From Methylobacter marinus A45 (GTDB lineage: Bacteria > Pseudomonadota > Gammaproteobacteria > Methylococcales > Methylomonadaceae), in the NCBI RefSeq assembly GCF_000383855.1, contig NZ_KB912877.1:4718745-4782744 (forward strand): a stretch of DNA of 64,000 nt, given 5' to 3'. Positions 45,247 to 63,520 of the stretch are shown piece after piece (position 1 is the stretch's first letter; each line of letters opens with the position of its first letter). Both the position numbers and the translations under genes were made by a program. The notes beneath the pieces are model-generated. The model was not told the DNA's origin, did not search any database, and saw nothing but the letters and a program-made list of their open reading frames with translations.

Positions 45247-45320
45247 GGCGTTTCTCCTTTAAAACGTGAACGTCAATATGAATCGTCGCGGTACTGCATT
45301 ATGTAATCCACGCATAAAAC

Positions 45321-46596: not shown

Positions 46597-46610
46597 GTGC
46601 GCTGTCGCAC
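46597..46610 (+). promoter_or_regulatory. Palindromic operator-like site, copy 1
   Basis: GTGCGCTGTCGCAC, a perfect 5+5 palindrome with a 4-base centre, preceded by GTCA and followed by ATAAAT. Located 248 bp upstream of the 46349 start. One of seven related sites in 46.6-63.3 kb. Confidence 0.7.
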
Positions 46611-46918
46611 ATAAATTATCGACTGATTCCCTTAATGCGGGATATCGGGAATTTGAGCAAGATAAAACCCTTCATCGCAGTCCGCCGCTTGTTTACGGCT
46701 TGGAATACGATCGCCTTCCATGCCATATCAGCGACAACACAATCCGCTCTCTTTTCTTAGCCCGAATTCAGGTTATCTACCGGTATTGGATTCAAGGGTT
46801 TATCAAAGCGATTTTTTTCGACTCCCGACGAAAACGCATAGACCGTGAACAACCGCGGTACGCAGCTTACGTCGGGATAAATAAATAGTCGGTGCAATAT
46901 CGACCAGCAATTATGGGA

Positions 46919-48277
46919 TCATTCCAGGATAATGACCTCATTTGAGCCCACGTTCACATCGCCGGTAACATTCACAACAATACCCTCCTTGCCCCTGTTA
47001 TTCGTATCCAGCAGCTCAATGTAATTGCCGGTGATTTCTATCCTGTCGGATTTAACGGTATCCTCGGTTCTAACGGGCACCTTTATTCCGACAAAACCGA
47101 AATCCTGGGAATGCGTTATGGTGTTGTCTATAATCCGCAAATCCGTGCAGGAAGCGCAACCGATGCCTATATTGCCGACATTGGTTACTTTATTGTCAGC
47201 GATAACCACATTGCTGAACGATTCCTCTGAAGCATAGCCCGGATCAACGCTGATGCCCCAGCAGGTTTGATGGGCGGCGCCAAGATCTTCATAAACCGTG
47301 TTGTTTTTAATCGTCAAATCCGTTACCACACCGTGAACCACCAGGGAAACCCCATAGCATTTGCCTTCCACGATAGCGGCTTTATATAACGTATTGTTGG
47401 AAACCGTAATGCCATAATTATCTTTACCCCCAATGTAGATATTATGATTGAATATTTTCCGCTCGAACCCGTTGTTAGTGAACTTATTATTATGTATCAG
47501 GCAGTCATTGCAGCCGCCCAGCCACCCTTGTCCCTTGTTATTAATGATGCTTGAGTTTCTTAATACGATGTGTTCGTTAACCTGATTGGCGCCGGGATTG
47601 GGGGCATTGGCGCCCGCGGAATACATACCGATAGAAAAGCCATCGATGGTCACGCCCTCAACGGTTACATAATCCACGTCGTTGAACAGGAAAATGCCGT
47701 TACCGCTGCCGTTTCCCTTGAGCGACAGGTTCCTGACCACATAGCCTTCGTCATGATCGGCCGGACCGCCATCCTGGAAATTCAATACCCCGTTGGCGCC
47801 GCTGCTTGAAATTACAGGCAATATGTCGGTACAGGAATTGCTGTTTGAAGAATTATTGTTCCCGGAAGGTCCGTTTGGAGGTATATAGTCAGCTATTGTG
47901 CAAGGCGCATCCGGAGTACAGTGCTGATTAAACAGCCGGGGATAAGAGGAAGTAAAGGTCCCGCCCCGGCAAAATAAAATGGCATCGCCGGCATTTAAAG
48001 CGCCGAACTTCGACATGGCATAATCATAGGTTGACCATGGTTCAAAAGGCGATAGGCCGGAATTACTATTGTCGCCATTATTACAAACATAATAATTCTG
48101 TGCCTGTACTGCCCCGGAAAACAGGCACAGGAATAACAGGCCGGCTTTAAGCATAGAAGTATATTTTTCTGTCATATCCCATGACCGTTTGATATCGGCG
48201 AGACCATCCTTATTCAATCCGATAGCCGTCAACGGGTTTTCAATGATTGCTTTCGATACGTTGTCTGTCGCGTTCAT
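46919..48277 (-). CDS. Secreted right-handed beta-helix protein, paralogue 1
   Basis: The 452-residue protein, from the ATG at 48277 with a GAGGAAACTATT leader, has a long N-terminal region of about 40 residues before a signal helix (AGLLFLCLFSGAVQAQ). A parallel beta-helix follows, with repeated NNT-type turns (HIVLRNSSIINNKG, VSNNTLYKA, IKNNTVYED, IADNKVTNVGN, ITGNYIELL). Such folds bind or cleave polysaccharides; no catalytic residues can be assigned. Paired cysteines in loops suggest disulphides. It is a tandem duplicate of the gene at 48983-50326. Confidence 0.88.
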   Translation of the reverse strand: MNATDNVSKAIIENPLTAIGLNKDGLADIKRSWDMTEKYTSMLKAGLLFLCLFSGAVQAQNYYVCNNGDNSNSGLSPFEPWSTYDYAMSKFGALNAGDAILFCRGGTFTSSYPRLFNQHCTPDAPCTIADYIPPNGPSGNNNSSNSNSCTDILPVISSSGANGVLNFQDGGPADHDEGYVVRNLSLKGNGSGNGIFLFNDVDYVTVEGVTIDGFSIGMYSAGANAPNPGANQVNEHIVLRNSSIINNKGQGWLGGCNDCLIHNNKFTNNGFERKIFNHNIYIGGKDNYGITVSNNTLYKAAIVEGKCYGVSLVVHGVVTDLTIKNNTVYEDLGAAHQTCWGISVDPGYASEESFSNVVIADNKVTNVGNIGIGCASCTDLRIIDNTITHSQDFGFVGIKVPVRTEDTVKSDRIEITGNYIELLDTNNRGKEGIVVNVTGDVNVGSNEVIILE

Positions 48278-48982
48278 AATAGTTTCCTCAATTGAGAACA
48301 TTGTACAAATCAAATGTGATCTAAAAAACAATGTCTAACCGCATCACATAGTGATTGCCGGGCGGTTTGTGTTTGTCCGTTAAAAACAGCAAGACCGCCA
48401 ATACATCGGAGAATAAATCAAAATACGCACTCTAGAGACTGTGGATGAATTAGCCTCTTATGCCGGGATTCCGCAAAGCGCTAACCCAGCCTACGCGCTA
48501 AGCCACAGGGATGTGGCGAATGTCGAAAACGCAGGGTGTAGGCGGGGTTGATAAACCCGGCATTTCGAAGCCCTTTATGCCGGGTTTCCGCAAAGCTCCA
48601 ACCCAGCCTACACGCTTTCACATTCTCTCAGACCATAACGCTAGTATGCGCTTCAAAGATAAGACGCAAAAAATGCGGAAGTCCGTGCGCTGCCGCACAT
48701 TCAAAATCGCATCTATCTACTATCAGCTCTATCTGTTCAACTGGATCATCATGATCGATAAGCCATTGAAAAATATCGTCCTGATGAATTTCAGGAGCAA
48801 TATCGGAGAATTTTGATCTGGTTTGACAAAATGCAGCCAGCCGCGACGGTTATTTCTGTCGATTCCTCGCGTCGAATAGCGGGTTTTTTAGGGAGAAAAC
48901 CCATCCTTGGGTTTTAAGACGCCGGATTCATCCTGTCGAGCATCGATAGGGCAGTAAAATTATATGGGATGGTATCCATTCC
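48278..48982. other. Intergenic region between the two beta-helix genes
   Basis: No gene is visible in 705 bp. The 5' leader of paralogue 1 lies at its left end (AATGTGATCTAAAAAACAAT near 48310). Two copies of a CGCAAAGC-x3-ACCCAGCC repeat lie at about 48471-48496 and 48586-48612, and an operator-like palindrome lies at 48685-48698. Confidence 0.6.
48685..48698 (+). promoter_or_regulatory. Palindromic operator-like site, copy 2
   Basis: GTGCGCTGCCGCAC, a perfect 5+5 palindrome, preceded by GTCC and followed by ATTCAA, a weaker flank than the other copies. It lies 408 bp upstream of the first beta-helix gene. Confidence 0.65.
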
Positions 48983-50326
48983 TTATCGGAGGAAAAAATC
49001 ATTCGAGCCTATGTTCACATCGCCGGCGGCAGGCACGACAATACCCTGCTTGCTCTTCTTATTCGTGTTCAGCAGCTCAATATAATTATCGGTAATGATT
49101 ATCCTGTCGGACTTAACGGTATCCTCCGTTCTAACGGGCACCTTGATTCCGACAAAACCGAAGTCCTGGGAATGCGTTATGGTGTTATTCAAGATCTGCA
49201 AATCCGTGCAGGAAGCGCAACCGATGCCCACATTGCCGACGTTGGTCACCCTGTTGCCGGCAATCATAAGGTTATTAAAGGATTCATCAACCGTAGACCA
49301 AGGATAAACGCCGATACCCCAACACGATTGTTCGGCGGCGCCGATATCTTCATAGATCGTATTATTTTCAATCGTCAAGTCTTGTACAACCCCATGCACC
49401 GCTAATGAGGTGCCCGCGCATTTACCGTTGACAAGAGTTGATTTGTTCAGAAAATTATTGGAAATGGTAATGCCATAATAATTATGGCCGACAAATTTTA
49501 TATTATGGTTATTCAGTTTTCTGGCAAAGCCGTTATTGATGAATTGATTATTATCAATTACGCAGTCATTGCAGCCGCCGAGCCATCCCCCACCTGCATT
49601 ATTAATGATGGTGGAGTTTTTGAATACGATATGTTCGTTAACCTGGTTGGCGCCGGGATTGGGGGCATTGGCGCCCGCGGAATAGATCCCCTGGGAAAAG
49701 CCATCGATAGTCACGCTCTCAACGGTTACGTAATCCACGTCGTTGAACAGGAAAATGCCGTTACCGCTGCCGTTTCCCTTGAGCGACAGGTTCCTGACCA
49801 CATAGCCTTCGTCATGATCGGCCGGACCGCCATCCTGGAAATTCAACACCCCGTTGGCGCCGCTACTTGTAATAACCGGCAGATCGGAAATTGAGGGATG
49901 ATCATCCATAGGCGAGATATTCGGGGGTATATAGTCGGCGAGGGTACAAGGCGCGTCCGGGGTACAGTATTGATTAAACAATCGAGGGTAAGAGGATGTG
50001 AAGGTCCCGCCCCGGCAAAACAAAATGGCGTCACCGGCATTTAAACGGCCGAACTTCGTCATGGCGTAATCAAAGGTTTTTAAAGGTTCATAAGGTGAGG
50101 AACCGAAATTGCTATCCGATCCATTGTCACAGACATAATAATTCTGCGCCAGGACTGGACTGGAGAACAGGCAAAGCAACAACGGGCTTGCCTGAAAAAC
50201 AACAGCGTATTTTCTTTTCAGCACAGTCCAAGACGGCTTGGTGCCGGCAAAGTCGTCCTGAGTCGTGCCAATGGCTGACTTCGGCGTTATAGCTAATGCA
50301 TTCGATATTTTTTGTATGTTTTTCAT
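48983..50326 (-). CDS. Secreted right-handed beta-helix protein, paralogue 2
   Basis: The 447-residue protein starts at 50326 after an AGGAG site. Like its neighbour it has a long N-terminal region before the signal helix (SPLLLCLFSSPVLAQ) and then the same beta-helix, with matching blocks FCRGGTFTSSYPRLFNQ, NGVLNFQDGGPADHDEGYVV and NANNPGANQV-like ANAPNPGANQVNEHIV. Some stretches are identical at DNA level to paralogue 1, others differ widely. Function unknown; secretion and a polysaccharide-type ligand are inferred. Confidence 0.88.
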   Translation of the reverse strand: MKNIQKISNALAITPKSAIGTTQDDFAGTKPSWTVLKRKYAVVFQASPLLLCLFSSPVLAQNYYVCDNGSDSNFGSSPYEPLKTFDYAMTKFGRLNAGDAILFCRGGTFTSSYPRLFNQYCTPDAPCTLADYIPPNISPMDDHPSISDLPVITSSGANGVLNFQDGGPADHDEGYVVRNLSLKGNGSGNGIFLFNDVDYVTVESVTIDGFSQGIYSAGANAPNPGANQVNEHIVFKNSTIINNAGGGWLGGCNDCVIDNNQFINNGFARKLNNHNIKFVGHNYYGITISNNFLNKSTLVNGKCAGTSLAVHGVVQDLTIENNTIYEDIGAAEQSCWGIGVYPWSTVDESFNNLMIAGNRVTNVGNVGIGCASCTDLQILNNTITHSQDFGFVGIKVPVRTEDTVKSDRIIITDNYIELLNTNKKSKQGIVVPAAGDVNIGSNDFFLR

Positions 50327-50792
50327 AATAATCACTCCTAATATGAAAAACATTGTAGAAGCGAATGTCATCTAAAAATGCTAACCGCATCACATAATAA
50401 CTGACGCAAGTCCGCTAAAAACGGGAACATCGCAATAAATCGATATGTGCCCCGCTCATTCCGGCACTACCGCTCAATTTCATAGATAACAAGATCCGAT
50501 ATTGAGCAGCCAATCGTCACATTCATCAAATGCGCCGCGGAAAAACGGCATGCGGGACTTGCGGACTAGAATGGGATTATCGAACTTATCGAACGAAGAT
50601 TGGAAGCACCGGCAAGCAAACGGATCGGGTAAATGATGGAAGGGCGCTTGACCGCCCTTCCGTTAACTCAACTGCCCCTGAGGCCACGAGTAATTTTGCA
50701 CAGCCGGTTTGTGGCTAAGTTTCTGATATTTTTTAATGGCCCCAATGCGATGACGCAACCCGGGCCGAACAGACATGCTGTGCCGTTTAAAT
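50327..50792. other. Non-coding region between paralogue 2 and the copper-storage-type gene
   Basis: No gene is visible. The left end carries the 5' leader shared with the other beta-helix gene (GCTAACCGCATCACATAATA near 50381-50400). The remainder shows no recognised repeat or operator site. Confidence 0.5.
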
Positions 50793-51173
50793 TCAGTGCT
50801 GCGTGGTCATGCCGGCCATTTGCCTGCAGCTGTCGGCGCATTCACGACAGGTAGACGCGCACTCCTCCATATCGCCAATGCTATCGCAGTCCATGGCACA
50901 GGCTTCGCAGATTTCGGCGCAGACTTCGCAGGTACGGTTGTGGAATCGTGAACTGCTGAGCATGAAATTAGCGGATGTTTGGCAAATTTCGGCGCAATTC
51001 ATCATCAGGCGGAAGTGTTCCGGCTCAACATGCTGTCCGCCCATTTCCAGGCATTGGTTCATGGCGGTTTCCCGGCAGACCTGGGAACAGCGGGTACACA
51101 TTTCGATGCATGACTGCATGGATTGATAGGATGGGCTTGAGGTTTTTCTTTGCTCTGATTGACTGGTATACAT
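50793..51173 (-). CDS. Cys-rich four-helix-bundle copper-storage-like protein (DUF326, Csp type)
   Basis: The 126-residue protein has 16 cysteines in CxxxCxxC and CxxxC spacings along predicted helices (C22, C26, C29, C33, C41, C60, C64, C82, C85, C89, C92, C96, C105, C109, C112, C116). There is no signal peptide, which fits the cytosolic Csp3 type that stores many Cu(I) ions inside a helix bundle. Csp proteins are well known from methanotrophs, although the family is widespread. A palindromic operator-like site lies 134 bp upstream. Copper storage is inferred from cysteine layout. Confidence 0.9.
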   Translation of the reverse strand: MYTSQSEQRKTSSPSYQSMQSCIEMCTRCSQVCRETAMNQCLEMGGQHVEPEHFRLMMNCAEICQTSANFMLSSSRFHNRTCEVCAEICEACAMDCDSIGDMEECASTCRECADSCRQMAGMTTQH

Positions 51174-51306
51174 GGTCGATTCTCCAAAATTAGAAAGACA
51201 AACGCAGCCTCAAAGGGCTGCGCTATTTTGCTAGAACACCAGGTTTCGCCACGCGCGTTACGTTTAAACCTGATAACTAATTTAACCCGAACAGCATTTG
51301 CAGTCG

Positions 51307-51320
51307 GTGCGTTGCCGTAC
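51307..51320 (+). promoter_or_regulatory. Palindromic operator-like site, copy 3
   Basis: GTGCGTTGCCGTAC, followed by ATAAAT, 134 bp upstream of the copper-storage-type gene. Four of five arm pairs match. Confidence 0.7.
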
Positions 51321-51478
51321 ATAAATCATTTTTTGCGATAGGTAAGCCGGATTTTTCGATAAGCATCTAACCGGCAGGTCCCATGTCAAGCAACGAAGAT
51401 GAAGATCTGATATTACGTAGACAATTGATTCAGGCACCGGTAGGAGCGGATTCGGCTGAAAATAACCACTGATATCCC

Positions 51479-51567
51479 TTCAGGTTAAGGCCGTTTCCGT
51501 GAGAGCGATGACTGCATCTCGATTTAAAATCGCCCGGCCGGTCGCGATGTGGGCATCGCTCCCACTG
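51479..51567. repeat. REP-like palindromic element
   Basis: A near-copy of the element at 12719-12843. Shared landmarks are AGGTTAAGGCCGT/AGTTAAGGCCGT, TCTCGATTTAAAATCGCCCG and GTCGCGATGTGGGCATCGCT followed by CCCACT. Non-coding and self-complementary. Confidence 0.78.
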
Positions 51568-51705
51568 GCCAGTGAACAATGCCTGCCCGGAGCGGCGGAC
51601 GGCATAACCCTCTGTCTGTGCGTCACGACAGTGAAAATAATGAAAATTCGGAATGCGGTTGAGCGCGAGGCTCCGGCACGAAAAACGGGCCTCACGATTT
51701 CCAGG

Positions 51706-52269
51706 CTAGCGGTTTTGGCCCCGCTGCATTTGCTCGCTAGCCGGCTTGTCCTTGCTCATCGATACGCTGCTGAGTAAGCCCATATCAATCTGCAGATTCT
51801 GTTTGAATTGAGTGATTTCCCCGCCTAGCGCGGCCAAATCCATATTGGCTTTTCTGACCCGCGGAAACATCTTGCCTTCTTCCTCCTTAATGTGGTGCTC
51901 CACCATTTCCCTGAGCACCGTGACTTTTGCGTCAAAATGCTCATCCTCGGGTGCCATCGTTATCAATTGATCGATCAAATCCTTGGCCGCGGCATGCTCC
52001 ACGATCGCCTCATCCATGATATCCAATTGGCCGATCGAGTCGATGGCGGCCGGATAGAAAATTTCCTCTTCGATTTGGGCATGGATCGAAAGCTCCAGAC
52101 AGATCTCCTGCACGATCTCCAGCTTTTCGTCCTCGGCTTCCTCGCTTTCCTTAAGCATTTCAAATTCCTCGAACAGCTTTTTTACTTTATTGTGATCCTG
52201 GGTGAGCAATGCAATCGCGTTCTGTTCACCGCCGCCATGCTCTCCCGATTGTCTCTTTGCCTGATTCAT
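51706..52269 (-). CDS. Hemerythrin-domain protein
   Basis: The 187-residue protein is a hemerythrin-like HHE four-helix bundle. It has AIALLTQDHNKVKKLFEEFE, LSIHAQIEEEIFYPA, VEHAAAKDLIDQL and MVEHHIKEEEGKMFPRV, giving the spaced His/Glu ligands of a di-iron site. It could bind O2 or sense oxygen, NO or iron; the cytosolic location follows from the lack of a signal peptide. It stands alone between a copper-storage-type gene and a membrane-protein gene, all on the same strand. Confidence 0.93.
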   Translation of the reverse strand: MNQAKRQSGEHGGGEQNAIALLTQDHNKVKKLFEEFEMLKESEEAEDEKLEIVQEICLELSIHAQIEEEIFYPAAIDSIGQLDIMDEAIVEHAAAKDLIDQLITMAPEDEHFDAKVTVLREMVEHHIKEEEGKMFPRVRKANMDLAALGGEITQFKQNLQIDMGLLSSVSMSKDKPASEQMQRGQNR

Positions 52270-52477
52270 AACGGTCTCCCCTTAAATTAACGCTGGAAAA
52301 AACAAACGGATTCCAGTCGTGCAATACTGTTTACGGCCATTGACAACCCGGCGGGATGCAAGGCCTGCAGCTTTGTGCTGATAAAGACAGCCCGTGGTAA
52401 AGACGTGCCGCGGACTGTCGCTTCGTGCGCTTCGCGGTAAAAATGTCAATGTGGCACATGCACCACTGAATAGAGGA

Positions 52478-53407
52478 TTAAACCTCCTCCGGGTACTCTT
52501 CATCCGGGATCGGCGTTCCGGCAATACCGCCCAAGGCGCCCGCTATGGCACTCAGCAGAATCACGATAAAGCCCCACAAGGCTGACCACGAAACCGCTTT
52601 AGCCGTGCTATCGGCCGCTTCCCGGGCTCGCTGTTCAGCCTGTTGATAGGCACTGCTCCAAGTGTCTACCCGATTCGCCGCTTCATCCATGCTCATACCC
52701 GTACGCGTCACAAGCAGATTGATCAAAGTCGTACGATTGCTGATCCTGGTATCCTCATCTTCCGCCGTCAGAAACCGTTCCAGAGCCATGCTGAATTCAG
52801 GATCCATCACGCTGGAGCGAGGTCTTGCCGGGATAGGCATGCCGGTCATTGGGTCGATTGCCTGTTGCGAACCCGCGCCTGGCTGATTGGACAGCAGCAC
52901 CATCGCATCTTCCCGGATATCGTCCCGTAAAAGCGCTGAAGAGGTACTCTCGGCCATGCCGCGAGCACCCGCGCTCAACACAGTGCCGGCGCCGCTCACG
53001 ATCGAACTGATGGCGCTGCCCAGCAAATAAATCGTAAACAGCGTGGTCACCGCCCAAACCAGCAGGCCGTGCAATAAACCGTCCAGATGGCGCAGATAGC
53101 CGGAAAACTGAGCCGCAACCCAGCCGCCGATCACCAGCGAAATAAAGCTCGAGACCACCCACCATAACCCGGCGCCGACGCTGAATGCGCTCGCGCTGGG
53201 CGTGCCTTCGGCAGACAACGGATCGACCGTGCTCATGCCGATGCCGGTGCCCAGCATACTCAACAGTACCTGAACACCCAGGGCGACAGCCACGCCGGCA
53301 AAGACCGACGCCCAGGACACCCGTTTTATCCATCGCGTCCGGCCTGGTCTCTGAGTAGCCGATATACCGGACCTTGCCTGCATTTGTTCATAGGATAAAT
53401 TGCTCAT
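52478..53407 (-). CDS. Multi-pass membrane protein, PhnA-like/YrzE-type
   Basis: The 309-residue protein has an N-terminal hydrophilic part and about four hydrophobic segments (VSWASVFAGVAVALGVQVLL, WWVVSSFISLVIGGWVAAQF, LLVWAVTTLFTIYLLGSAIS and a C-terminal WGFIVILLSAIAGALGGIAG). A long cytosolic or periplasmic stretch (about 150-260) separates helix 3 from the last. Similar proteins are annotated as PhnA-like or YrzE family; function is unknown. The start used (53407) leaves nine bases from a GGAG site; a second ATG lies 6 bp before it. An operator-like palindrome lies 149 bp upstream. Confidence 0.82.
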   Translation of the reverse strand: MSNLSYEQMQARSGISATQRPGRTRWIKRVSWASVFAGVAVALGVQVLLSMLGTGIGMSTVDPLSAEGTPSASAFSVGAGLWWVVSSFISLVIGGWVAAQFSGYLRHLDGLLHGLLVWAVTTLFTIYLLGSAISSIVSGAGTVLSAGARGMAESTSSALLRDDIREDAMVLLSNQPGAGSQQAIDPMTGMPIPARPRSSVMDPEFSMALERFLTAEDEDTRISNRTTLINLLVTRTGMSMDEAANRVDTWSSAYQQAEQRAREAADSTAKAVSWSALWGFIVILLSAIAGALGGIAGTPIPDEEYPEEV

Positions 53408-53555
53408 AACCATGTACTCCGAATCCAGTTAATGAAAATTGCCGAGCATCTGCTCTAGCGACTGCTAACTGCGCAATGTCCGATAGCAACTCTTTGGAGC
53501 TGAATGCCCTCTTCCACAGATGATTGGAGCTTAGTTGCAAATGCCGCTCATGTCA

Positions 53556-53569
53556 GTACGCTGACGAAC
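53556..53569 (+). promoter_or_regulatory. Palindromic operator-like site, copy 4
   Basis: GTACGCTGACGAAC, followed by ATAAGT, in the divergent gap between the membrane-protein gene (start 53407) and the PRC-barrel gene (start 53720). It can serve both. Confidence 0.7.
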
Positions 53570-53719
53570 ATAAGTCACCGGTAATCGGCCCTGGCCACGG
53601 TTTCTTTTTTTATGTGCGCAACCGAACTGATTATTTCCAAACCTGTAGGTATCCTCTTACAGCAAGTGCTGGAGAATAACCGCTCCGGCTATATTGAAAT
53701 TCATTATGAGGAGACGAAC

Positions 53720-54178
53720 ATGAGCTATGTAGATCGCGATACCTATGGCATATACAAGGGCAAACTGGATAAATCAGGCCCCGGCCCGCGATTGATGGGG
53801 GCGGACACACTGCTTGGCAATGATGTCTACAATACCAAAGGCGAGGATTTGGGTGATATCAAGGAGATCATGCTGGACATGGCTTCTGGCAGAGTGGCTT
53901 ACGCCGTCCTGTCATTCGGAGGGATTCTGACGCTGGGCGAAAAACTGTTTGCGGTACCCTGGGATGCGTTAAAGCTGGATACCAAAAATGAACGTTTCAC
54001 ATTGGATGTCGACAAACAACGCCTGGAATCGGCGCCCGGGTTCGACAAGGACCGCTGGCCGGATATGGCGGATGAGACCTGGTCTAGAGAAGTCCATTCC
54101 TTTTATGGAACAAAGCCGTATACAACTGAGTCTATTCAGCAACCGTATTCAAGCGAATCCGGCCCTACACATCATTAG
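53720..54178 (+). CDS. PRC-barrel domain protein
   Basis: The 152-residue protein has one PRC barrel (about 28-100), with LLGNDVYNTKGEDLGDIKEIMLD, RVAYAVLSFGG and KLFAVPWDALKLD. A short C-terminal tail (WPDMADETWS and on) follows. PRC barrels are small beta-barrels involved in RNA processing or photosynthetic complexes; stand-alone stress-cluster members are of unknown role. The ATG at 53720 follows GAGGAGACGAAC, so the longer in-frame start at 53612 is not used. Confidence 0.9.
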   Translation: MSYVDRDTYGIYKGKLDKSGPGPRLMGADTLLGNDVYNTKGEDLGDIKEIMLDMASGRVAYAVLSFGGILTLGEKLFAVPWDALKLDTKNERFTLDVDKQRLESAPGFDKDRWPDMADETWSREVHSFYGTKPYTTESIQQPYSSESGPTHH

Positions 54179-54271
54179 TTATTCAATGCCACGCTGTCCC
54201 GGCGGCGTGGTTTCCTCTCTCGTCCGAACGAGAGTTTTTTTAAAATAAAAAACAACTGGAAGGGTATCTAT

Positions 54272-56113: not shown

Positions 56114-56116
56114 CTA

Positions 56117-56395
56117 TCATCTCCTGTGCTCTAAAGTATGCGTCGTCAACTGGCTCAGCATGAAGCCGGCCGCCAGCGCGATGCCCATTGAGCTGATCGG
56201 GTGCTCGCGGATGTAGTCGCGGGCATCTTCCACAAGTTTCTCTTCCAGCTCTTTTAACTGCTCGCCTTTCTCGCCGAGCATCTCGGTAGCCTGACTGGTG
56301 GCGCTGGCAATTTTCTTGGCCGCCTCTTCCGCGGCGCTGGCGATTTTCTCGGCTGCCTCATCCGCGGTGCTTGATAATTTGTCTATAGTTTCCAT
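56117..56395 (-). CDS. DUF883/YqjD-like inner-membrane protein
   Basis: The 92-residue protein has a long amphipathic Ala/Glu/Lys helix (about 1-60) with an EEAAEKI/AEEAAKKI-type repeat. A C-terminal YIREHPISSMGIALAAGFML segment anchors in the membrane; this tail is the DUF883 hallmark. E. coli YqjD associates with ribosomes in stationary phase; whether that holds here is open. A close paralogue lies at 58864-59121. Confidence 0.9.
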   Translation of the reverse strand: METIDKLSSTADEAAEKIASAAEEAAKKIASATSQATEMLGEKGEQLKELEEKLVEDARDYIREHPISSMGIALAAGFMLSQLTTHTLEHRR

Positions 56396-56501
56396 AATGG
56401 TTACCTTCGTTGAGATTGTTTTAAGATCGCAAGAACCTTTAAAAAAACAGAACCTAACGGAACCTTAAGTGGATGTTTTGCGAACACAGTGCCGAGATTG
56501 A

Positions 56502-56822
56502 TTATCTACCTCTTGACTGCGCCTTCTCCAAAATAAGGTTGCCGTATTCATGCTCTTCCAGCTTGCCGGTTTTGCCGGCATCAACCATATCGAAATGCTT
56601 GAGCAAATCAGGATGATCGGCCAATTCATCCTTGGTTACATAGTGATCGCCATTTTTATCGACTTCCTGAAAAGTCGGATATTCCGTTACATCGCCTTCT
56701 TCCCCGGTAGCGCTCGTGCCGCCCATGCCTTCGGCCTGCGCCATCTGGGCGCCCCAGACCAGGCCGCCGCCGAGAACGAACGGTAACCACAATTTTTTCG
56801 TAGCAACATTAAGAATCTTCAT
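56502..56822 (-). CDS. Exported EF-hand protein
   Basis: The 106-residue protein has a signal peptide (FVLGGGLVWGAQMAQAE) and two EF-hand-like loops. One is DKNGDHYVTKDEL at about residues 55-67, a full Ca2+ loop. The other is DAGKTGKLEEHEY at about 81-93, which lacks the second acidic residue and may bind weakly. It is likely periplasmic and single-domain. An AGAGGTTAAT ribosome-binding site precedes the start. Confidence 0.85.
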   Translation of the reverse strand: MKILNVATKKLWLPFVLGGGLVWGAQMAQAEGMGGTSATGEEGDVTEYPTFQEVDKNGDHYVTKDELADHPDLLKHFDMVDAGKTGKLEEHEYGNLILEKAQSRGR

Positions 56823-56989
56823 ATTAACCTCTAACGATGGTTTAAACCGCGAAAATAAGACCGTCAGTTTTTTCCCCTGGCGATTGCCTGATTACTCAAA
56901 AGCAAATTGAAACGCCATGCTGGCTGGGTTGGCGCTTTATGCCCGGCTTATCCATGAATCCTGAAAGCGCTCAATCCGATACACTTCAA

Positions 56990-57424
56990 TTAACTCTGCA
57001 GCAGCCGGTTCAGCGCACGAATATTCTCTTGCTGTGAAGTCAGCAGTTTGGTCTCAATCAACGCACTGACATCCGAAGGGATATCAGGATCCTGCGCCGC
57101 TTGTTCATAATCTTCCAGGCCGTTTCTTTCTCCGGCCAGCAAGGCATTCAACATGGCATCCCTGCCCAGCATTTCGGCACCGCTCATCACCGTTTCCGAC
57201 CATGAACCCCATATGCCTGAATCACTGGTGGGCGTGCCGCCCATTTGTTGAATCTTTTCTTGCAGTTCGGAGACGGCAGAGGTGTGTTCTTCATAAATCG
57301 GCTCTAAATAGGCAATTTCCTTGCGCTGCGCCTCTTCTTCAAACTTTTCCAATGCCTGATGATAGGTCTCTGCCGCGGACAATTCATTCTTCAGTAATTT
57401 CTCGACTTTATCGATGTTTTGCAT
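56990..57424 (-). CDS. DUF2383 ferritin-like protein
   Basis: The 144-residue helical protein has VEKLLKNELSAAETYHQAL, EEHTSAVSELQEKI, GERNGLEDYEQAA and a final TSQQENIRALNRLL. The spaced Glu/His (EL..AETYH, EEHT, E..GLEDY, E..I) are arranged as in a ferritin-like diiron bundle of the DUF2383 type. It has no signal peptide. A GGAGGTTGGT ribosome-binding site precedes it. It lies 33 bp after the glycine-zipper stress-protein gene and is probably co-transcribed. Confidence 0.85.
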   Translation of the reverse strand: MQNIDKVEKLLKNELSAAETYHQALEKFEEEAQRKEIAYLEPIYEEHTSAVSELQEKIQQMGGTPTSDSGIWGSWSETVMSGAEMLGRDAMLNALLAGERNGLEDYEQAAQDPDIPSDVSALIETKLLTSQQENIRALNRLLQS

Positions 57425-57457
57425 ACCAACCTCCTCGGGTTTTTAAAACTAAATTCT

Positions 57458-57982
57458 TTAATGATGCGGCGCTTCAACCTCACCCGTTGTCGAGATATCT
57501 TCGGCATTGGCTTGCTCGAAAATGTCCTTGACCTGGGAGCGTGCCTCTGAGGTTTCCGTGTGGACGGAAATCAATGCATTGCCGCCCTGAATCCGGCCTT
57601 CATAGCGTTTGGCCTCATATTCAGGAATCCCCAGGCCGATCAAGGCGCCGGCCAGACCGCCGGTGGCGGCGCCCACGGCCGCGCCGCTCAAAGCGCCCAT
57701 GATAGGCCCGGCGGCAATCAACGGGCCAAGGCCAGGAATTGCCAGCGTGCCGATACCGACCAGCCAGCCTATGATGGCGCCGGTGCCGATGCCGACTGTG
57801 CCGCCGATAGCCGTGCCTTCCGGCGATTTGGTGTGTTTTTCATGACCGAATTCATGCTCGCTGGTTTTGTCCGGCAATAGCACGGAAATATCGTTATTAT
57901 CAAAACCAGCCGCTTTCAGCTGGCTGATGATATGTTCCACCTGGTCATTCGTTTGCGCGATACAAAAGACTGATTTGTTCAT
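57458..57982 (-). CDS. Glycine-zipper general-stress protein (YflT/DUF1269-like)
   Basis: The 174-residue protein has an N-terminal ferredoxin-like fold (FCIAQTNDQVEHIISQLKAAGF). Two hydrophobic, Gly/Ala-rich membrane-active segments follow (about 58-118), with GTAIGGTVGIGTGAIIGWLV and GALSGAAVGAATGGLAGALI. A C-terminal ALISVHTETSEARSQVKDI strand-helix repeats the N-terminal fold. This is the layout of YflT/GSP17M and DUF1269 proteins. An AAGGAGAATGTT site precedes the ATG. Confidence 0.85.
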   Translation of the reverse strand: MNKSVFCIAQTNDQVEHIISQLKAAGFDNNDISVLLPDKTSEHEFGHEKHTKSPEGTAIGGTVGIGTGAIIGWLVGIGTLAIPGLGPLIAAGPIMGALSGAAVGAATGGLAGALIGLGIPEYEAKRYEGRIQGGNALISVHTETSEARSQVKDIFEQANAEDISTTGEVEAPHH

Positions 57983-58003
57983 AACATTCTCCTTAACCCG
58001 CGA

Positions 58004-58402
58004 TTACTTGGCTTTGACTTCAAGTTGATTATCAACCTGACTCACGCCCGGCGTTTGCTGAGCGATGGCTTGCAGCCTGGTTTTTTCCGCTGCGCTATCG
58101 ACCGGGCCACGCAAGGATACCCTGCCGTTTCTCGTAATCACCTTGGCGTTGTGCGCGTTGACGGACAGCGATTCATCGTCGGTAATGGTTTTGCGGATAT
58201 TGGCCGTGATCTGGAGATCGCTCTCATTTTCGAGCTGGTCCTCAGGCGTTAAAGTCGCACCGCCCTCATCACGCACATTGCGTTCGGTGTTTTCAGCTGG
58301 GCTGCCGATTCTTTCGCGTTCGGTCGTTCCTTCGGCGCTGGCTAGACCGGTCATCAGCATTAAGCCCGCCGCCAGGGTCAGTAATGGTAGTCGTTTTGAC
58401 AT
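58004..58402 (-). CDS. Periplasmic BON-domain protein (OsmY-like)
   Basis: The 132-residue protein has a signal peptide ending GLASAEG, an acidic linker (about 25-62) and one BON domain (about 65-130), with TANIRKTITDDESLSVNAHN and the GRVSLRGPVDSAAEK core. It is likely an envelope stress protein of the OsmY type. It heads a short same-strand run (BON, glycine-zipper protein, DUF2383) with gaps of 21 and 33 bp, likely one operon. AAGGAGAATCACT precedes the start. Confidence 0.9.
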   Translation of the reverse strand: MSKRLPLLTLAAGLMLMTGLASAEGTTERERIGSPAENTERNVRDEGGATLTPEDQLENESDLQITANIRKTITDDESLSVNAHNAKVITRNGRVSLRGPVDSAAEKTRLQAIAQQTPGVSQVDNQLEVKAK

Positions 58403-58863
58403 AGTGATTCTCCTTAAAGAAAAATTGTAATTATTTTCAAGGCTTACCCTGCGCTCCTTGCCAACCTTATCCCTTTACTGAACAATACCCAATCACCTGA
58501 ACATAGCATTTGACGCTAACACATCAGCTGAGCCGCGTGCTGTTCCCGGCTCTGATATAAAGAGTCCGGGTACGATGTCAGGAGAAAAAGCATTGGCGAT
58601 GTCTTAATCGAATCAACGTACATTGATCCATTACCGGCATTACCTGTGATGACACTGCGTGTTTGCGCAGCGCCACCACCATTAACATAACCTGACGCGT
58701 TGTCGGCATGATTGTTAATTGATACCCTGGTCAAAAAGGACGCGAACCACTTAATCGGCCTTATGGCTCAGCGACAGCATCAGGTGCATAATCGCCCGGC
58801 TTCATCGCTTCCTTTTTGTTTTACGGATTACCGCTCTTTCTCGAAACATGCGGGCATGGCTTT
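58403..58863. other. Non-coding region
   Basis: No supported gene in 461 bp. A frame at 58516-58734 would have to start at TTG without a ribosome-binding site and has no family features. The left end should carry the promoter of the BON operon; no operator-like palindrome is seen. Confidence 0.5.
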
Positions 58864-59121
58864 CTAGCGATGGCCCATCAGACGGCTCAAGATGAAGCCG
58901 CTGCCCAAGGCTATGCCTAACGATGTTACCGGGTTTTCGCGGACATACTCACGCGCATGCTCCATCAACCGTTCCTGAGCATCTTTCATTTGCTCGCTTT
59001 TCTCGCTGATGGTTTCCGCGGCCTTGTGGCTTACCTCAGCGGCTCTTTCCACCGCTTCATGCGCGCCGGCTCTGACGCGTTCAACCGTTTCACCTGTACC
59101 GCCTGATTTTGTCGTTTCCAT
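58864..59121 (-). CDS. DUF883/YqjD-like inner-membrane protein, second copy
   Basis: The 85-residue protein has a helical, charged N-terminal part (VERAAEVSHKAAETISEKSE) and the DUF883 tail YVRENPVTSLGIALGSGFIL near the C-terminus. It is a paralogue of the gene at 56117-56395 but stands alone without YqjE/YqjK neighbours. The sequence before its ATG (GGAAACCATT) resembles the leaders of other genes in this island. Confidence 0.9.
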   Translation of the reverse strand: METTKSGGTGETVERVRAGAHEAVERAAEVSHKAAETISEKSEQMKDAQERLMEHAREYVRENPVTSLGIALGSGFILSRLMGHR

Positions 59122-59253
59122 AATGGTTTCCTATATCGATTAAAGTTATAAGATCATCAACGATCTCGAAAAAGTGCCCTCTATGCGACACATGCTATTG
59201 GCCCGATTCCGATCGCCGAAGTTCAGCGTTCAAAACCTTCTGGCGTAATCATC

Positions 59254-59331
59254 TCAATTAAAAATCAAATAAATGATGACCAGCACAAACACTGGTACAC
59301 CGAGTAACCATCCAAGCACATATTTGCCCAT
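59254..59331 (-). CDS. 25-residue micro-membrane protein
   Basis: A very short frame starting MGKYVLGWLLGVPVFVL and ending in IYLIFN forms one membrane helix. It has an excellent AGGAG ribosome-binding site seven bases before the ATG, and an operator-like palindrome lies 187 bp upstream. It is too short for most annotation pipelines. An overlapping longer frame on the same strand (59258-59533) lacks such a site and starts inside the palindrome. Function unknown; it resembles the micro-proteins at 45 kb in type, not in sequence. Confidence 0.75.
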   Translation of the reverse strand: MGKYVLGWLLGVPVFVLVIIYLIFN

Positions 59332-59517
59332 GATCTGTCTCCTCTAAACTGTTGCTCCTTAATGCCGGCATTTCGTCCACTGCATCCATCAGCGACTCAT
59401 CAACAAAAACGTCATAACGAAAAGCTGTCATCAAGGCTATTTTTTCCGTTGCTTCCTGCGTCATTTCTCTGTGATGCATGTTAACTAACATATTAAGAAT
59501 AAAATGCCCTACCGTCA

Positions 59518-59531
59518 GTACGATAACGCAC
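59518..59531 (+). promoter_or_regulatory. Palindromic operator-like site, copy 5
   Basis: GTACGATAACGCAC, preceded by GTCA and followed by ATAAGA, 187 bp upstream of the 25-residue membrane protein. Four of five arm pairs match. Confidence 0.65.
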
Positions 59532-59601
59532 ATAAGAGCATGAAGCGCGCCTCTTCATTACCGCGCGGCTGCCGCTGAATCCCTGCGCTGAATACAGCGG
59601 C

Positions 59602-60747
59602 TCAGGGACCGGTGTAGCTGATTCGGTAAATCGCCCCCCGCTTATCGTCTGAAACCAGCAGGGCGCCGTCCGGCGCGACGATGACATCAACCGGCCGTCC
59701 CCAGGCGGAATTGCCCTGCAGCCAACCTTCGGCGAAGGGTTCGTAAGTCACCGCGTCATTGTCGCCGAGCGTGACCATGCTGACCCGGTAGCCCAGCTTT
59801 GGACTGCGGTTCCAGGAACCGTGTTCGGCGATAAAAATACGGTTCCGGTACGGACTGGGAAACTGGCGTCCCGTATAAAAGCGCATGCCCAATGCCGCGA
59901 CATGAGGCCCGAGCTTTTGCGCCGGCGCAGTAAAATCGGAACAGGGATTGCGAAGGCCGAAAACCGGGTCGGGCAACTCGCCGGCATGGCAATGGGGATA
60001 TCCGAAATGCAGCCCCATCACGGGCGCATGATTGAGCTCGTCGGGTGGCGTATCGTTACCCAACAGATCGCGGCCGTTGTCGGTAAACCACAGTTCGTGC
60101 GTTTCCGGATGCCAATCGTAACCGACCGAGTTGCGTATGCCGCGCGCGAACACTTCGGCGCCGCCGCCGTTGCGGTCCATGCGGATGATGACGCCGTACC
60201 GGTCGGCTTCCGGCATGCAGATATTGCACGGCACGCCAATCGACACGTATAACTTGCCGTCGGGGCCGAAGTGCATGACGCGCAGGCCGTGATGCGCATA
60301 TTTGAGGCCGAGATCATAGATCACGACGGGCGGCATCGGCTGGTCGAGGTGCTTCTCGATATCATCGAAGCGCAATATGCGGCTGCGCTCGGCCACATAC
60401 AGGGAGCCATCCCTGAAGGCGACGCCGTGCGGGTCCTGCAGATCCCTGGCAATGACCCGCACTTCGCCTTTCCGGCCGCTGCGAACCGGGATGGCATAGA
60501 CCTTCCCCTGCTTGTAAGTGCCGATAAAAAGCGTGCCGTTGTCTCCGAACGCCAGTGTCCGCGCGCCGGGCACGTCGTCCTCATAGAGGGTAATGGAGAA
60601 GCCGGCCGGCAGCGCTATGCGCTCCAGTTTCGTGCCGGGCATCAGGGAGCAGGCATTCATTAACCCCAGCACCATGGCCATGCAAGCGTAAGCCATCTTC
60701 CTGGCAGGCCATGACCGTCTGTTGTATACGCCATGATGCCGCATCAT
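59602..60747 (-). CDS. PQQ-dependent sugar dehydrogenase-like lipoprotein
   Basis: The 381-residue protein has a lipoprotein-type signal (LGLMNAC). A six-bladed propeller of the soluble glucose dehydrogenase (GSDH/Asd) family follows, with HHGLRVMHFGPDGKLYVSIG (His base), RNSVGYDWHPETHELWFTDNGRD and FIAEHGSWNRS. It may oxidise a sugar in the periplasm; the substrate is unknown and PQQ binding is inferred from family. It is coupled (4-bp overlap) to a BON gene and is the last gene of a BON-ferritin-BON-dehydrogenase operon. Confidence 0.88.
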   Translation of the reverse strand: MMRHHGVYNRRSWPARKMAYACMAMVLGLMNACSLMPGTKLERIALPAGFSITLYEDDVPGARTLAFGDNGTLFIGTYKQGKVYAIPVRSGRKGEVRVIARDLQDPHGVAFRDGSLYVAERSRILRFDDIEKHLDQPMPPVVIYDLGLKYAHHGLRVMHFGPDGKLYVSIGVPCNICMPEADRYGVIIRMDRNGGGAEVFARGIRNSVGYDWHPETHELWFTDNGRDLLGNDTPPDELNHAPVMGLHFGYPHCHAGELPDPVFGLRNPCSDFTAPAQKLGPHVAALGMRFYTGRQFPSPYRNRIFIAEHGSWNRSPKLGYRVSMVTLGDNDAVTYEPFAEGWLQGNSAWGRPVDVIVAPDGALLVSDDKRGAIYRISYTGP

Positions 60748-61070
60748 GGCGCCTGCACCATAAGGTCGTTGTCCACGGACTCCACGCCGCGGGCCTGTTC
60801 GGCGATCGCTTCCGCCTGCCGTTTACCGGCCGCTGACGGCACCGCGCCGCTGAGCCGGATCGCGCCGAGATAGGCCTCGACCTGAACCGGCGCATCACCG
60901 ATTGCCTGATCGGCCAGCAAGGCGCCTTTGACCCTGGCGATCAGTTCCTGATCTTTTTGATATTCCTGCTCCTGGAAATACAGCCGGACCAGCTCGACAT
61001 ACCCGCAACCGGCAACTTGCGCTGACGCGGCTGACAGCGCAAACAGCGTTGCCGGGCGCGCCAGTTTCAT
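60744..61070 (-). CDS. BON-domain lipoprotein
   Basis: The 108-residue protein has a lipobox VAGC (C22) and a BON domain (about 40-107), with LIARVKGALLADQAIGDAPV and the AIRLSGAVPSAAGKRQAEAI core. It overlaps the ferritin-like gene upstream and the sugar dehydrogenase downstream by 4 bp each, so all three are translationally coupled. Confidence 0.88.
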   Translation of the reverse strand: MKLARPATLFALSAASAQVAGCGYVELVRLYFQEQEYQKDQELIARVKGALLADQAIGDAPVQVEAYLGAIRLSGAVPSAAGKRQAEAIAEQARGVESVDNDLMVQAP

Positions 61071-61618
61071 GAACTGACTTCCGCCAGGCGTCCCTGCAGC
61101 AGATCGGCCAGTTCGTCGGCATGCTCTTCTTCCACGGCCAGGATGTCCTCCAGCATGTTGCGCGTGGTCGGATCGCGGTCGCCCAGGTATTGAGTCATCT
61201 CGCGATAACTGTCGATGGCAATGCGTTCGGCCACCAGGTCTTCCTTGATCATATCGACCAGGGAGTTGCCCTCCACGTACTCCGCATGGCTGCGTCCGGA
61301 CAGGCTGTCCGGCGAAAAGTCGGGTTCGCCGCCCAACTGGACAATACGCCGCGCAATCTGGTCGGCATGGCCCTGTTCCTCATTGGCATGCACCAGGAAC
61401 TCGTCGGCGATGCCCTTGGACTGAATGCCCTGGGCCATGAAATAGTGGCGGCGGTAACGCAATACGCAGACCAGTTCCGTGGCCAGTGCGTCATTCAGCA
61501 GCTTGATGACCGTCTTGGCATCCGCCGCATAGCCGGCTGTTACGGCACCGTTGTCAATATGCTGGCGTGCCTGCGCGCGCAAGGTTTGGACATCGGTCAA
61601 ATGAGTTTTTTTTGACAT
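61067..61618 (-). CDS. Bacterioferritin/ferritin-like protein
   Basis: The 183-residue protein has a four-helix diiron bundle. TVIKLLNDALATELVCVLRY gives the first Glu, NEEQGHADQIARRI the ExxH, DLVAERIAIDSYREM the second Glu, and VEEEHADELADLL the last ExxH. It may store iron or detoxify peroxide. The start at 61618 has a GGGAGGGCGAT site; an in-frame extension to 61699 lacks support. It overlaps the BON gene downstream by 4 bp and lies 83 bp after another BON gene. Confidence 0.92.
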   Translation of the reverse strand: MSKKTHLTDVQTLRAQARQHIDNGAVTAGYAADAKTVIKLLNDALATELVCVLRYRRHYFMAQGIQSKGIADEFLVHANEEQGHADQIARRIVQLGGEPDFSPDSLSGRSHAEYVEGNSLVDMIKEDLVAERIAIDSYREMTQYLGDRDPTTRNMLEDILAVEEEHADELADLLQGRLAEVSS

Positions 61619-61701
61619 ATCGCCCTCCCTGAGAGGCAAAATCGTCTGTTGGTTGAAAATCCGCGGCCACCGCTTTAGCAGTGGCCCGCAGTCTGACAAG
61701 C

Positions 61702-62055
61702 CTATCTATAGCGGCTTTGTTTTACCTGCATATTATTTTGCACCGACCTGACGCCTTCGACCCGTTGAGCCACCTCAACCGCCCGGGTGATATCTTCCTC
61801 GGATGCCACAAAACCGCTTAATTGCACGTCGCCCTGATAGGTTTCCACATTGATTTCAGCAGCACTCAGGCCGGGCTCGTTAAAGATGGCCGCCTTTACC
61901 TTGGTGGTAATCATACTGTCGTCAATGTAGGCGCCGGGAGTTTGGCTTGATTCAGCCCGGGTATCCGAGACTTCATCCGTGGACGCACAACCGGTTACCC
62001 AGGTCAACAACAGCGCTAGAAAAAATGCTGAACAGTATTTGGTAAGTTGTTTCAT
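61702..62055 (-). CDS. BON-domain lipoprotein
   Basis: The 117-residue protein has a lipobox VTGC (C23), a short Ser/Thr linker and a BON domain (about 45-115), with MITTKVKAAIFNEPGLSAAEI and the GDVQLSGFVASEEDI core. It heads the operon with the ferritin-like gene. An operator-like palindrome lies 406 bp upstream of its start. Confidence 0.9.
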   Translation of the reverse strand: MKQLTKYCSAFFLALLLTWVTGCASTDEVSDTRAESSQTPGAYIDDSMITTKVKAAIFNEPGLSAAEINVETYQGDVQLSGFVASEEDITRAVEVAQRVEGVRSVQNNMQVKQSRYR

Positions 62056-62562
62056 AGCTAATTCTCCAGATGAATAATAAAGTGATGACGGGCAATTCGA
62101 TCATGATTGATACCCGGATATTAGATGGCACACACCCTCGCAGCGAAACGGCAATGCGTCAGGCTGACCTCGCTGTTACTGACACGGTTAACCCATGCCA
62201 TCCAGCCAGGAACAATCACAAAATAACCTCATCCTTCTGTTCCCCTTACCGCCGTGGGCCTGCATGAACGCAGGCAGTGGAACAGTGACCGGGAGCCGCG
62301 GTAGAGGCAGACAATGCTCAGGTTATTTCATGCCTGTTCCTTGACAAAAAAGCCATACCAGAAAAGATCAGTTATTTCGGCAGACAATCAGGCTCTGTCG
62401 CAAAGACTGGCTGTAATGCATGACCTAGAATAAATCTAGGTTTAAAATCAGCCGACGTCCGTACGGTGTCGAACATAAGTGACTTTTCGCTCATTATTTC
62501 GTCTGGCGGGAGGGGGGGGGGCCAGGAAGAAGCCTTTTGACGGGCGGGATTGTTTGCCTGCT
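62056..62562. other. Non-coding region with an operator-like site
   Basis: No supported gene in 507 bp. It holds an operator-like palindrome (62461-62474) and a run of nine or more G near 62511-62521. The promoter of the BON-ferritin operon should lie at its left end. Confidence 0.55.
62461..62474 (+). promoter_or_regulatory. Palindromic operator-like site, copy 6
   Basis: GTACGGTGTCGAAC, followed by ATAAGT, 406 bp upstream of the BON-ferritin operon. Four of five arm pairs match, and the left flank (GTCC) also fits the other copies. Confidence 0.68.
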
Positions 62563-63033
62563 TTACTCGCCTGTTTCTTTGCCGGCCTTGCTTGACGGGC
62601 TCTGCCTGATCGGTTCAGTCGCCTCAATCCTGACCTTGCCGACGCCGTCTTCCTTGATATCGAGCTTTTTCGCCGCCTCCCTGGACAGATCGATCACCCG
62701 ATCCTTCGCATAAGGTCCGCGATCGGTAATTTCGACCTCGACCTTTTTCCTGTTCTCGAGATTAGTCACTTCAACCTCGGTCCCTAGCGGCAGGCTGGGG
62801 TGGGCGGCGGTCATTTTTCCCTGATCGAAAATCTCGCCGCTGGCGGTCTCCCGGCCATGAAACCCGGGGCCATACCAGGAGGCCTCGCCAACTTCCTGGT
62901 AGGTCGACCGGGGCGCGTCCTGATTTTTTTGGCCTTGGCCGTCCGTCTCTTCCCTGGCGCACCCGGACAATGCCAGACTGCAGATCAGCACGGCCTGCAA
63001 GCCGTGATAAAAAAACTTTCCGGGCTTAAACAT
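62563..63033 (-). CDS. RlpA-like septal ring lytic transglycosylase/lipoprotein
   Basis: The 156-residue protein has a lipobox LSGC and a double-psi beta-barrel (about 45-135), with the RlpA hallmarks GEASWYGPGFHGRETASGEIFD, MTAAHPSLPLGTEVEVTNL and DRGPYAKDRVIDLS. The catalytic Asp of DPBB lytic enzymes is in ITDRGP. RlpA digests denuded glycan strands at septa; the SPOR domain of longer versions is missing here. I chose the ATG nine bases after an AGGA; a second ATG lies 6 bp upstream. Confidence 0.9.
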   Translation of the reverse strand: MFKPGKFFYHGLQAVLICSLALSGCAREETDGQGQKNQDAPRSTYQEVGEASWYGPGFHGRETASGEIFDQGKMTAAHPSLPLGTEVEVTNLENRKKVEVEITDRGPYAKDRVIDLSREAAKKLDIKEDGVGKVRIEATEPIRQSPSSKAGKETGE

Positions 63034-63039
63034 GGTCAT

Positions 63040-63520
63040 CCTGCTATTTGAAAAATCACTGTCAGGACTTACGCAGCTTGCTTGTTCAACCGTCGAGACA
63101 AGCGGTTCTAAAACCTGTTGGGGCGACTTTATTTATGCCCTTTAGGGTAGTCGCCCATTTCAGACCCAAGAGGCGACTGCCAACAGTAAGCGCTTTAGGC
63201 GAAGTCGTCCCCACGGGTTTGCGTAAGTCCTGACTGTTAACTTTAATGAATTTTTAGCCGGAAAAAGATATCTGAAGTTTGAAATGAGGTCTGTACGGTG
63301 TCGAACAGATAATCGTTCATTGAACCTTGGTTTTCTAACAGGCTCTACAGGTTGAAATGGGTTTTTACTTGAGTCCGAGCACCCGGAATTACGCTTGGAT
63401 TTTTTGCAGTTACCTTAAAAAATCCTTAATAAATCATAGCATTAAGTATTCTTGCTTATTGTTCTCAACTGATAGCTAACGGACAATGCCCCGCAATTTT
63501 AACAGAGACCGAATTACATT
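63040..63520. other. Divergent intergenic region between the RlpA-like gene and the Crp-type gene
   Basis: No supported gene. It holds a hairpin block at about 63117-63215 with GGGGCGACTTTATTTATGCC and TAGGGTAGTCGCCC parts, and an operator-like palindrome at 63293-63306. Promoters for both flanking genes should lie here. Confidence 0.6.
63293..63306 (+). promoter_or_regulatory. Palindromic operator-like site, copy 7
   Basis: GTACGGTGTCGAAC, identical to copy 6, followed by AGATAA. It lies 215 bp upstream of the Crp-type regulator and 260 bp upstream of the RlpA-like gene, so it could support autoregulation. Confidence 0.65.

Follow-up and report, generated by a model that had tools for sequence, protein, structure and literature searches.

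Palindromic promoter-shaped sites in a stress-gene island of Methylobacter marinus A45 and their candidate Crp/Fnr-type regulator

RESULTS

The 64,000-nucleotide (nt) stretch of the genome of the methanotroph Methylobacter marinus A45 analysed here (the window) carries seven copies of a palindrome, GTRCG-N4-CGNAC, which a sequence-only reading had proposed as sites for a Crp/Fnr-type dimer upstream of stress genes. We find that these sites look like whole promoters rather than isolated boxes. The promoter class is real, precise and widely conserved, and it has a strong candidate regulator, the Crp/Fnr-type protein encoded at 63521, here called E-type. In our view this protein likely controls an envelope/general stress regulon as a class II activator, acting via sigma-70-type promoters. 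What the sequences show directly is how the promoters are laid out, that this layout is conserved and that it co-occurs with the regulator; the stress-gene regulon with a Crp/Fnr-type dimer site, as first proposed, is well backed by fixed geometry, conserved promoters, genome matches and co-occurrence in 369 genomes.

The palindromes are part of promoter-shaped sites

All seven palindromes are present at the positions reported for them (Table 1). They exceed chance expectation: 13 match rows, corresponding to nine places, are obtained for the core GTRCGN4CGNAC in the window, compared to a mean of 0.78 rows (maximum 6) in shuffled sequences. The two core matches beyond the seven are 34173, which lacks promoter context, and 53614. 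A promoter-shaped site at 45538 on the minus strand, one core base off, was absent from the initial list. As had been reported, ATAAGT, ATAAAT or ATAAGA directly follows the palindrome on the plus strand in five of the seven cases, and the distance to listed open reading frame (ORF) starts, given as about 130-410 bp, is 134-406 bp.

Read on the gene strand, all seven sites take the form GTNCG-N4-CGYAC-NGAC. The ATAAGT flank corresponds on this strand to a TTAT placed immediately upstream of the palindrome (5/7 sites start with TTAT), NGAC lies on its other side in 7/7, and a -10-like hexamer is present in every case (TTATCT at 48685, TAnnnT at the other six). The complete layout is TAT-GTRCG-N4-CGYAC-NGAC-N18-TAnnnT, where the palindrome ends 22 nt before the -10. 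With the -10 set to -12..-7, positions being counted from this predicted element and not from mapped start sites, the centre of the palindrome falls at -41.5, and the final palindrome base opens the -35 region. CRP and NtcA show this arrangement at class II promoters, where the activator site is centred near -41.5 and keeps a constant distance from the -10.

A single fixed orientation had also been described. This holds for the seven reported sites; the additional site 53614 is promoter-shaped on the plus strand, toward a PRC-barrel gene, so that orientation follows the target gene. The window was further scanned with a promoter matrix derived from 139 non-redundant sites, this genome and M. 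luteus being left out. Nine places score above 20, namely the seven reported sites, 45538 (minus strand) and 53614 (plus strand), and all nine lie within 45.5-63.3 kb of the window. The best of 30 Markov shuffles under the same matrix reaches 14.1. No other place in the window exceeds 12, and none exceeds 9 in positions 1-45,000.

The layout is conserved around orthologous regulators

Relatives of the 63521 regulator were found as at least 566 coding stretches, and the analysis used the 80 best loci. These are mostly gamma- and betaproteobacterial (Methylobacter, Methylomonas, Methylotuvimicrobium, purple sulfur bacteria, Nitrosomonas, Noviherbaspirillum, Cupriavidus, Rhodanobacter and others) and also include two draft genomes labelled Spirochaetes. 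They contain 234 GT.CG palindromes, in 75 of 80 loci, the mean over all 256 such palindromes being 26; the only commoner ones are two GC-only palindromes.

The spacing was examined on 466 oriented core matches in these loci, 157 of which are followed by nGAC. Among the 157, TAnnnT occurs 98 times at offset 22 and 0-14 times at each of the 29 other offsets (10-39). Offset 22 is still the peak in the 309 core matches without nGAC (34 versus at most 10 elsewhere). The -10 was not used in picking the 157 matches, and the test is independent of matrix training. Scanning with the matrix gave 263 sites in 74/80 loci, and none in ten column-permuted controls or in the reversed sequence. Some of the training sites of the matrix came from these very loci, which makes the 263 a non-independent figure; independence does hold for the scan of the window, for the offset test and for the comparison of 369 genomes described below.

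The 150 sites left after removing redundancy from a set of 164, seven of them window sites, give the logo TAT-GTRCG-n-TA-n-CGYAC-MGAC-N18-TAnnnT. In the -10, T is found at -12 in 71%, A at -11 in 79% and T at -7 in 80% of sites. The -35-like element is NGAC, with no full TTGACA, and position 3 of the half-site is loose (G 50, A 24, T 24). Comparison of orthologous promoters, proposed along with the sequence-only reading, revealed three that are conserved in M. luteus (59518, 62461 and 63293). In these, 57/63 positions are kept at -51..-31 and 38/54 at -30..-13, compared to 173/291 in the upstream and 299/471 in the downstream flanks.

These data bear on two other readings of the sites. One, raised at the outset, is a dispersed repeat without regulatory role. 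The copies do have a flank in common, but they face both ways, the same layout recurs in 74/80 loci, and conservation in M. luteus is concentrated at -51..-31. In addition, a leader-versus-leader comparison shows no relation between leaders except for those of 46597 and 48685, which share only stretches of 33 and 22 bp with 91% identity, and for a single inverted match of 12 bp. We find a dispersed repeat scarcely credible. In the other reading, an alternative sigma factor takes the palindrome as its -35 element. The fixed spacing to a -10-like element would fit such a factor, but the element is a dyad and has NGAC and TAnnnT beside it at normal sigma-70 spacing, and no sigma factor was found among the 19 window proteins scanned, which makes this reading very unlikely. 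The genome is not devoid of a stress sigma factor: an RpoS-type gene above cut-off is present.

Promoter-shaped sites co-occur with the regulator

Searching the M. marinus A45 genome with the 45-bp promoter pattern (at most two mismatches) gave 19 matches, compared to 2 with the reversed-pattern control; the simpler GTNCGN4CGNACNGAC gave 15 versus 4. A genome scan had been suggested as a check for concentration upstream of stress genes. The 19 matches are indeed unevenly spread: nine are in the island, and of the ten distal ones about half lie upstream of stress or redox genes. With 10/19 matches elsewhere, the regulon is not restricted to the island.

We then compared 369 genomes of the class. 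Carriers, defined by a match to the regulator family at E<=1e-20, number 44. Of these, 32 have two or more promoter-shaped sites, as against 0/325 non-carriers (Fisher 1.6e-36). Total matches to the 45-bp pattern amount to 172 in the carriers and 22 in the non-carriers; hand-counted reversed-pattern controls are 9 and 40, respectively. In an earlier set of 185 genomes, the looser pattern GTNCGN4CGNACMGAC gave 107 versus 44 control matches in 20 carriers, and 126 versus 230 in 165 non-carriers. The sizeable background of looser patterns is the reason why the 45-bp pattern was used.

Sites also tend to lie close to the regulator gene. In nine genomes, hand-picked for long contigs and with up to ten listed places each, 45/56 listed sites are within 50 kb of a regulator, where 2.0 are expected; the regulators include two matches of 47-49% identity. 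In M. marinus A45 itself, 4/10 listed sites are within this distance.

The regulator and its recognition helix

The 63521 product scores above threshold for both expected domains (cNMP_binding, 34.1 versus 27.5 bits; HTH_Crp_2, 60.8 versus 27 bits). Its predicted fold comprises a long dimer helix and a winged helix (monomer model, predicted local distance difference test 81.3, predicted template modelling score 0.80), and the structure matches listed for this model are mostly CRP, GlxR, NtcA and FNR chains of the PDB. It falls far below the curated models for Fnr of the E. coli type (17 bits, cut-off 228) and NtcA (28.5 bits, cut-off 244.95). The protein is a Crp/Fnr member of an unnamed subfamily. 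The E-type recognition helix, GVRREGVTEAA, was examined in 91 rows (89 from related loci, the window's protein twice): R186 and R187 are found in 91/91 and E188 in 90.

A second regulator type, V-type (helix GVRRVGITKAA), is often found near E-type genes (loci L034, L037, L040 and others), with 29 rows above 140 bits in the related loci. The two types differ in their relation to the sites. A site is aimed at the gene in 21/28 V-type and in 5/83 E-type cases. The 83 E-type copies are those for which 700 bp upstream were available; 45 of them have a site pointing away from the gene, about 7 being expected for either direction. No V-type gene was found in the M. marinus A45 genome, where the subfamily gives a single match at E<=1e-20. 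As V-type genes are mostly faced by sites, E-type genes rarely, and this genome has no V-type match, we take E-type as the binder and V-type as a target, which suggests a two-step cascade from E-type to V-type. The proposal that the regulator controls itself was not upheld: the nearby 63293 site faces the RlpA-like gene, and orthologues of the regulator are seldom faced by a site.

A proposed class II activation model

We infer both the identity of the binder and its mode of action from these observations. Each site would be an activator-dependent sigma-70-type promoter, at which a dimer of the 63521 protein would bind GTRCG-N4-CGYAC centred at -41.5. The bound dimer would then recruit RNA polymerase to the adjoining NGAC and TAnnnT (class II activation). 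Its targets in the window would be BON, DUF883-like, PRC-barrel, DUF326 and RlpA-like proteins together with small membrane proteins; in relatives they would include BON and CsbD proteins and, in methanotrophs, squalene-hopene cyclase. Activation is deduced from the fixed spacing between palindrome and -10. A fixed offset to the -10 across promoters is a hallmark of class II activators, whereas repressor sites vary in position. The same protein could instead bind and repress, as many regulators overlapping promoter elements do, and the palindrome abuts the -35; but an offset of 22 to the -10 is fixed over many promoters, which carry NGAC only and no full TTGACA, and repression therefore appears quite unlikely.

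Another binder for real promoters, either the V-type protein or a linked two-component regulator, seems unlikely. V-type genes are present in many of the same loci, the RR pair and C146/H150/C223/C225 are common to both types, some 3.5-5.5 kb past the regulator gene are ORFs that we read as a histidine kinase and a response regulator, and strictly linked genes are inseparable by co-occurrence. Against this, the M. marinus A45 genome has its 19 promoter-shaped matches with one subfamily match and no V-type gene found, V-type genes behave as targets, and the four carriers whose best match is at most 45% identical have 0, 2, 0 and 1 sites.

Several observations weigh against an E-type activator of this regulon. 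The Fisher value overstates independence, since the 369 genomes are related by descent. Twelve of the 44 carriers have fewer than two sites (seven none, five one), and one genome (G154), whose sole family match is 38% identical, still has two. With the looser pattern no excess is seen in carriers G026 (3 versus 8) and G107 (10 versus 10). Four of the distal sites in M. marinus A45 have two mismatches and the control itself gives 2 matches, so that some may be chance. Finally, the CRP recognition-helix glutamate reads half-site position 3 as G:C; this position being loose here, the E-type helix leaves specificity unexplained in the textbook way.

A conserved Cys/His set

All 91 E-type rows have C146, H150, C223 and C225; among the 29 V-type rows, one of them gapped, each of these residues is found in 28 or 29. 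C157 is present in 90 rows of the E-type and absent from those of the V-type. In the model, the long dimer helix spans 124-149, with C146 close to its end and H150 just past it; C223 and C225 are among the first residues of a helix that follows the winged-helix domain. Three C-terminal cysteines and an aspartate hold the [4Fe-4S] cluster of Bacillus subtilis Fnr (PMC3520743). In view of this precedent and of the conserved set, a metal or cluster site is plausible here, and the conservation suggests a metal or redox sensor whose signal would be read through C146/H150/C223/C225.

Tentatively, and with more doubt than confidence, the E-type subfamily may represent a metal-/redox-sensing Crp/Fnr class whose ligands are new as a set: Cys-x3-His where the dimer helix ends, and a C-terminal Cys-x-Cys. 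It would head a general envelope-stress response in gamma- and betaproteobacteria, controlling small membrane proteins, BON/CsbD proteins and, in methanotrophs, hopanoid synthesis, and would include the E-type to V-type cascade.

Predicted target genes

The first genes picked behind the ten distal sites encode a BON protein; CsbD followed by BON (CsbD by our reading of the sequence); a flavodoxin-fold protein; a zinc alcohol dehydrogenase; a Rieske/FAD reductase; a PLDc_N membrane protein; a DUF4112 protein; a UPF0093 protein; a weak glycosidase match; and one protein without family. Six of these sites were inspected: four overlap no ORF of at least 90 amino acids (aa) and two overlap only the 5' extension of the downstream ORF.

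In the relatives, a simple rule assigned 151 downstream ORFs (five sites had none), of which 150 were scanned, one long ORF being left out. In all, 74 Pfam families were matched; among the 25 of them listed are BON (15), squalene-hopene cyclase (12), CsbD (8), HTH_Crp_2 (7), DPBB as in RlpA (4), OmpA (4), AI-2E transporter (3), PLDc_2 (3) and SMBP (3). The targets most likely form an envelope/general stress regulon. The squalene-hopene cyclase gene of M. marinus A45 (C1:4158179) has no site in the 5 kb examined, so the cyclase link holds only in relatives.

Features of the island

Table 1. Promoter-shaped sites with their predicted target genes, and further genes, in the island. Mismatches refer to the 45-bp pattern.
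Feature	Position	Strand	Details	Predicted target
Site, palindrome 45538-45551	45510..45554	-	score 32.7; 1 mismatch	DUF3096 / DUF3309 / BON genes (-)
Site, palindrome 46597-46610	46569..46613	-	score 32.9; 0 mismatches	protein 45861-46382 (without Pfam family)
Site, palindrome 48685-48698	48657..48701	-	score 28.6; 2 mismatches; -10 is TTATCT	beta-helix protein 46919-48331
Site, palindrome 51307-51320	51279..51323	-	score 37.2; 0 mismatches	DUF326 protein 50793-51173
Site, palindrome 53556-53569	53528..53572	-	score 32.3; 0 mismatches	protein 52478-53413 (without Pfam family); hemerythrin gene 51706-52269 farther downstream
Divergent site, palindrome 53614-53627	53611..53655	+	score 21.5; 1 mismatch	PRC-barrel gene, ORF 53612-54178, likely start 53720
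Site, palindrome 59518-59531	59490..59534	-	score 36.9; 0 mismatches; conserved in M. luteus	25-aa ORF and DUF883-like gene 58864-59121
Site, palindrome 62461-62474	62433..62477	-	score 35.8; 0 mismatches; conserved in M. luteus	BON gene 61702-62055
Site, palindrome 63293-63306	63265..63309	-	score 33.9; 1 mismatch; conserved in M. luteus	RlpA-like gene 62563-63039, not the regulator
Crp/Fnr-type regulator P0001, 255 aa	63521..64000, runs past window end (L008:1521-2288)	+	cNMP_binding, HTH_Crp_2	
BON-domain protein	44485..44910	-		
DUF3096 protein, 44 aa	45324..45455	-	in 45538 leader	
DUF3309 protein, 49 aa	45100..45246	-	in 45538 leader	

The leader of the 45538 site spans 593 nt up to the BON gene, and the two small membrane proteins encoded in it (DUF3096 and DUF3309, 45100-45455, minus strand) are below the 80-aa size of the ORF list. 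In the 59518 leader, a 25-aa hydrophobic ORF (59254-59331, minus strand), MGKYVLGWLLGVPVFVLVIIYLIFN, is identical in M. luteus (L024, about 6425, minus strand); a search of the remaining 80-locus set with one peptide pattern found none beyond M. luteus. The leaders of 62461 (62055-62426) and 45538 (44910-45503), both on the minus strand, have the 12-bp inverted match in common and are rich in inverted repeats, as judged by eye. An Rfam scan of 40-64 kb gave no RNA family at the gathering threshold. Two similar beta-helix proteins are encoded in tandem (46919-48331 and 48983-50371, minus strand), and a matching ribosome-binding region precedes both 46919-48331 and the unlike protein 45861-46382.

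DISCUSSION

Small stress proteins of the kind of CsbD, BON, DUF883 and DUF3309 occur commonly among environmental proteobacteria, and to our knowledge little is known of their control outside a few models. The exact promoter signature gives a list of candidate target genes in many genomes, tied to one candidate regulator, and in some methanotrophs is an entry to squalene-hopene cyclase control. Through the conserved Cys/His set the signal, too, becomes amenable to test. A query of the open-access literature gave no report of this motif or subfamily, its coverage being weak and the slash spelling 'Crp/Fnr' being missed.

Several known systems share features with this one. The E. coli CRP site is TGTGA-N6-TCACA, and CRP has an Arg-Glu pair at the start of its recognition helix. 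The GTG-N8-CAC spacing (when R is G) and the Arg-Glu at the helix start are thus the same here, but C then G follow GTR where CRP sites have A, position 3 is loose, and E. coli CRP chains are 16-18% identical to the regulator among the matches listed. With the FNR proteins of E. coli and Bacillus it shares the Crp/Fnr fold. E. coli FNR has an N-terminal cluster, in contrast to the C146/H150/C223/C225 set found here. Bacillus Fnr is closer in having ligands in the C-terminal tail plus one body residue; it uses three C-terminal cysteines and an Asp (PMC3520743), whereas only C223 and C225 lie on the C-terminal side here. EcfG of alphaproteobacteria is likewise a dedicated switch for a general stress regulon, but is an alternative sigma factor and not a Crp/Fnr activator (PMC4814048).

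A parallel in promoter geometry is NtcA of cyanobacteria (GTAN8TAC). In the NtcA-activated class II promoters described in PMC3898017, the GT-N10-AC site is centred at about -41.5 with a 22-nt gap to TAN3T, and both the Crp/Fnr fold and this layout are the same here. The differences are the conserved inner CG...CG, the NGAC -35, a stress rather than a nitrogen regulon, and RE in the aligned helix where NtcA has RV; the regulator also scores far below the NtcA model cut-off.

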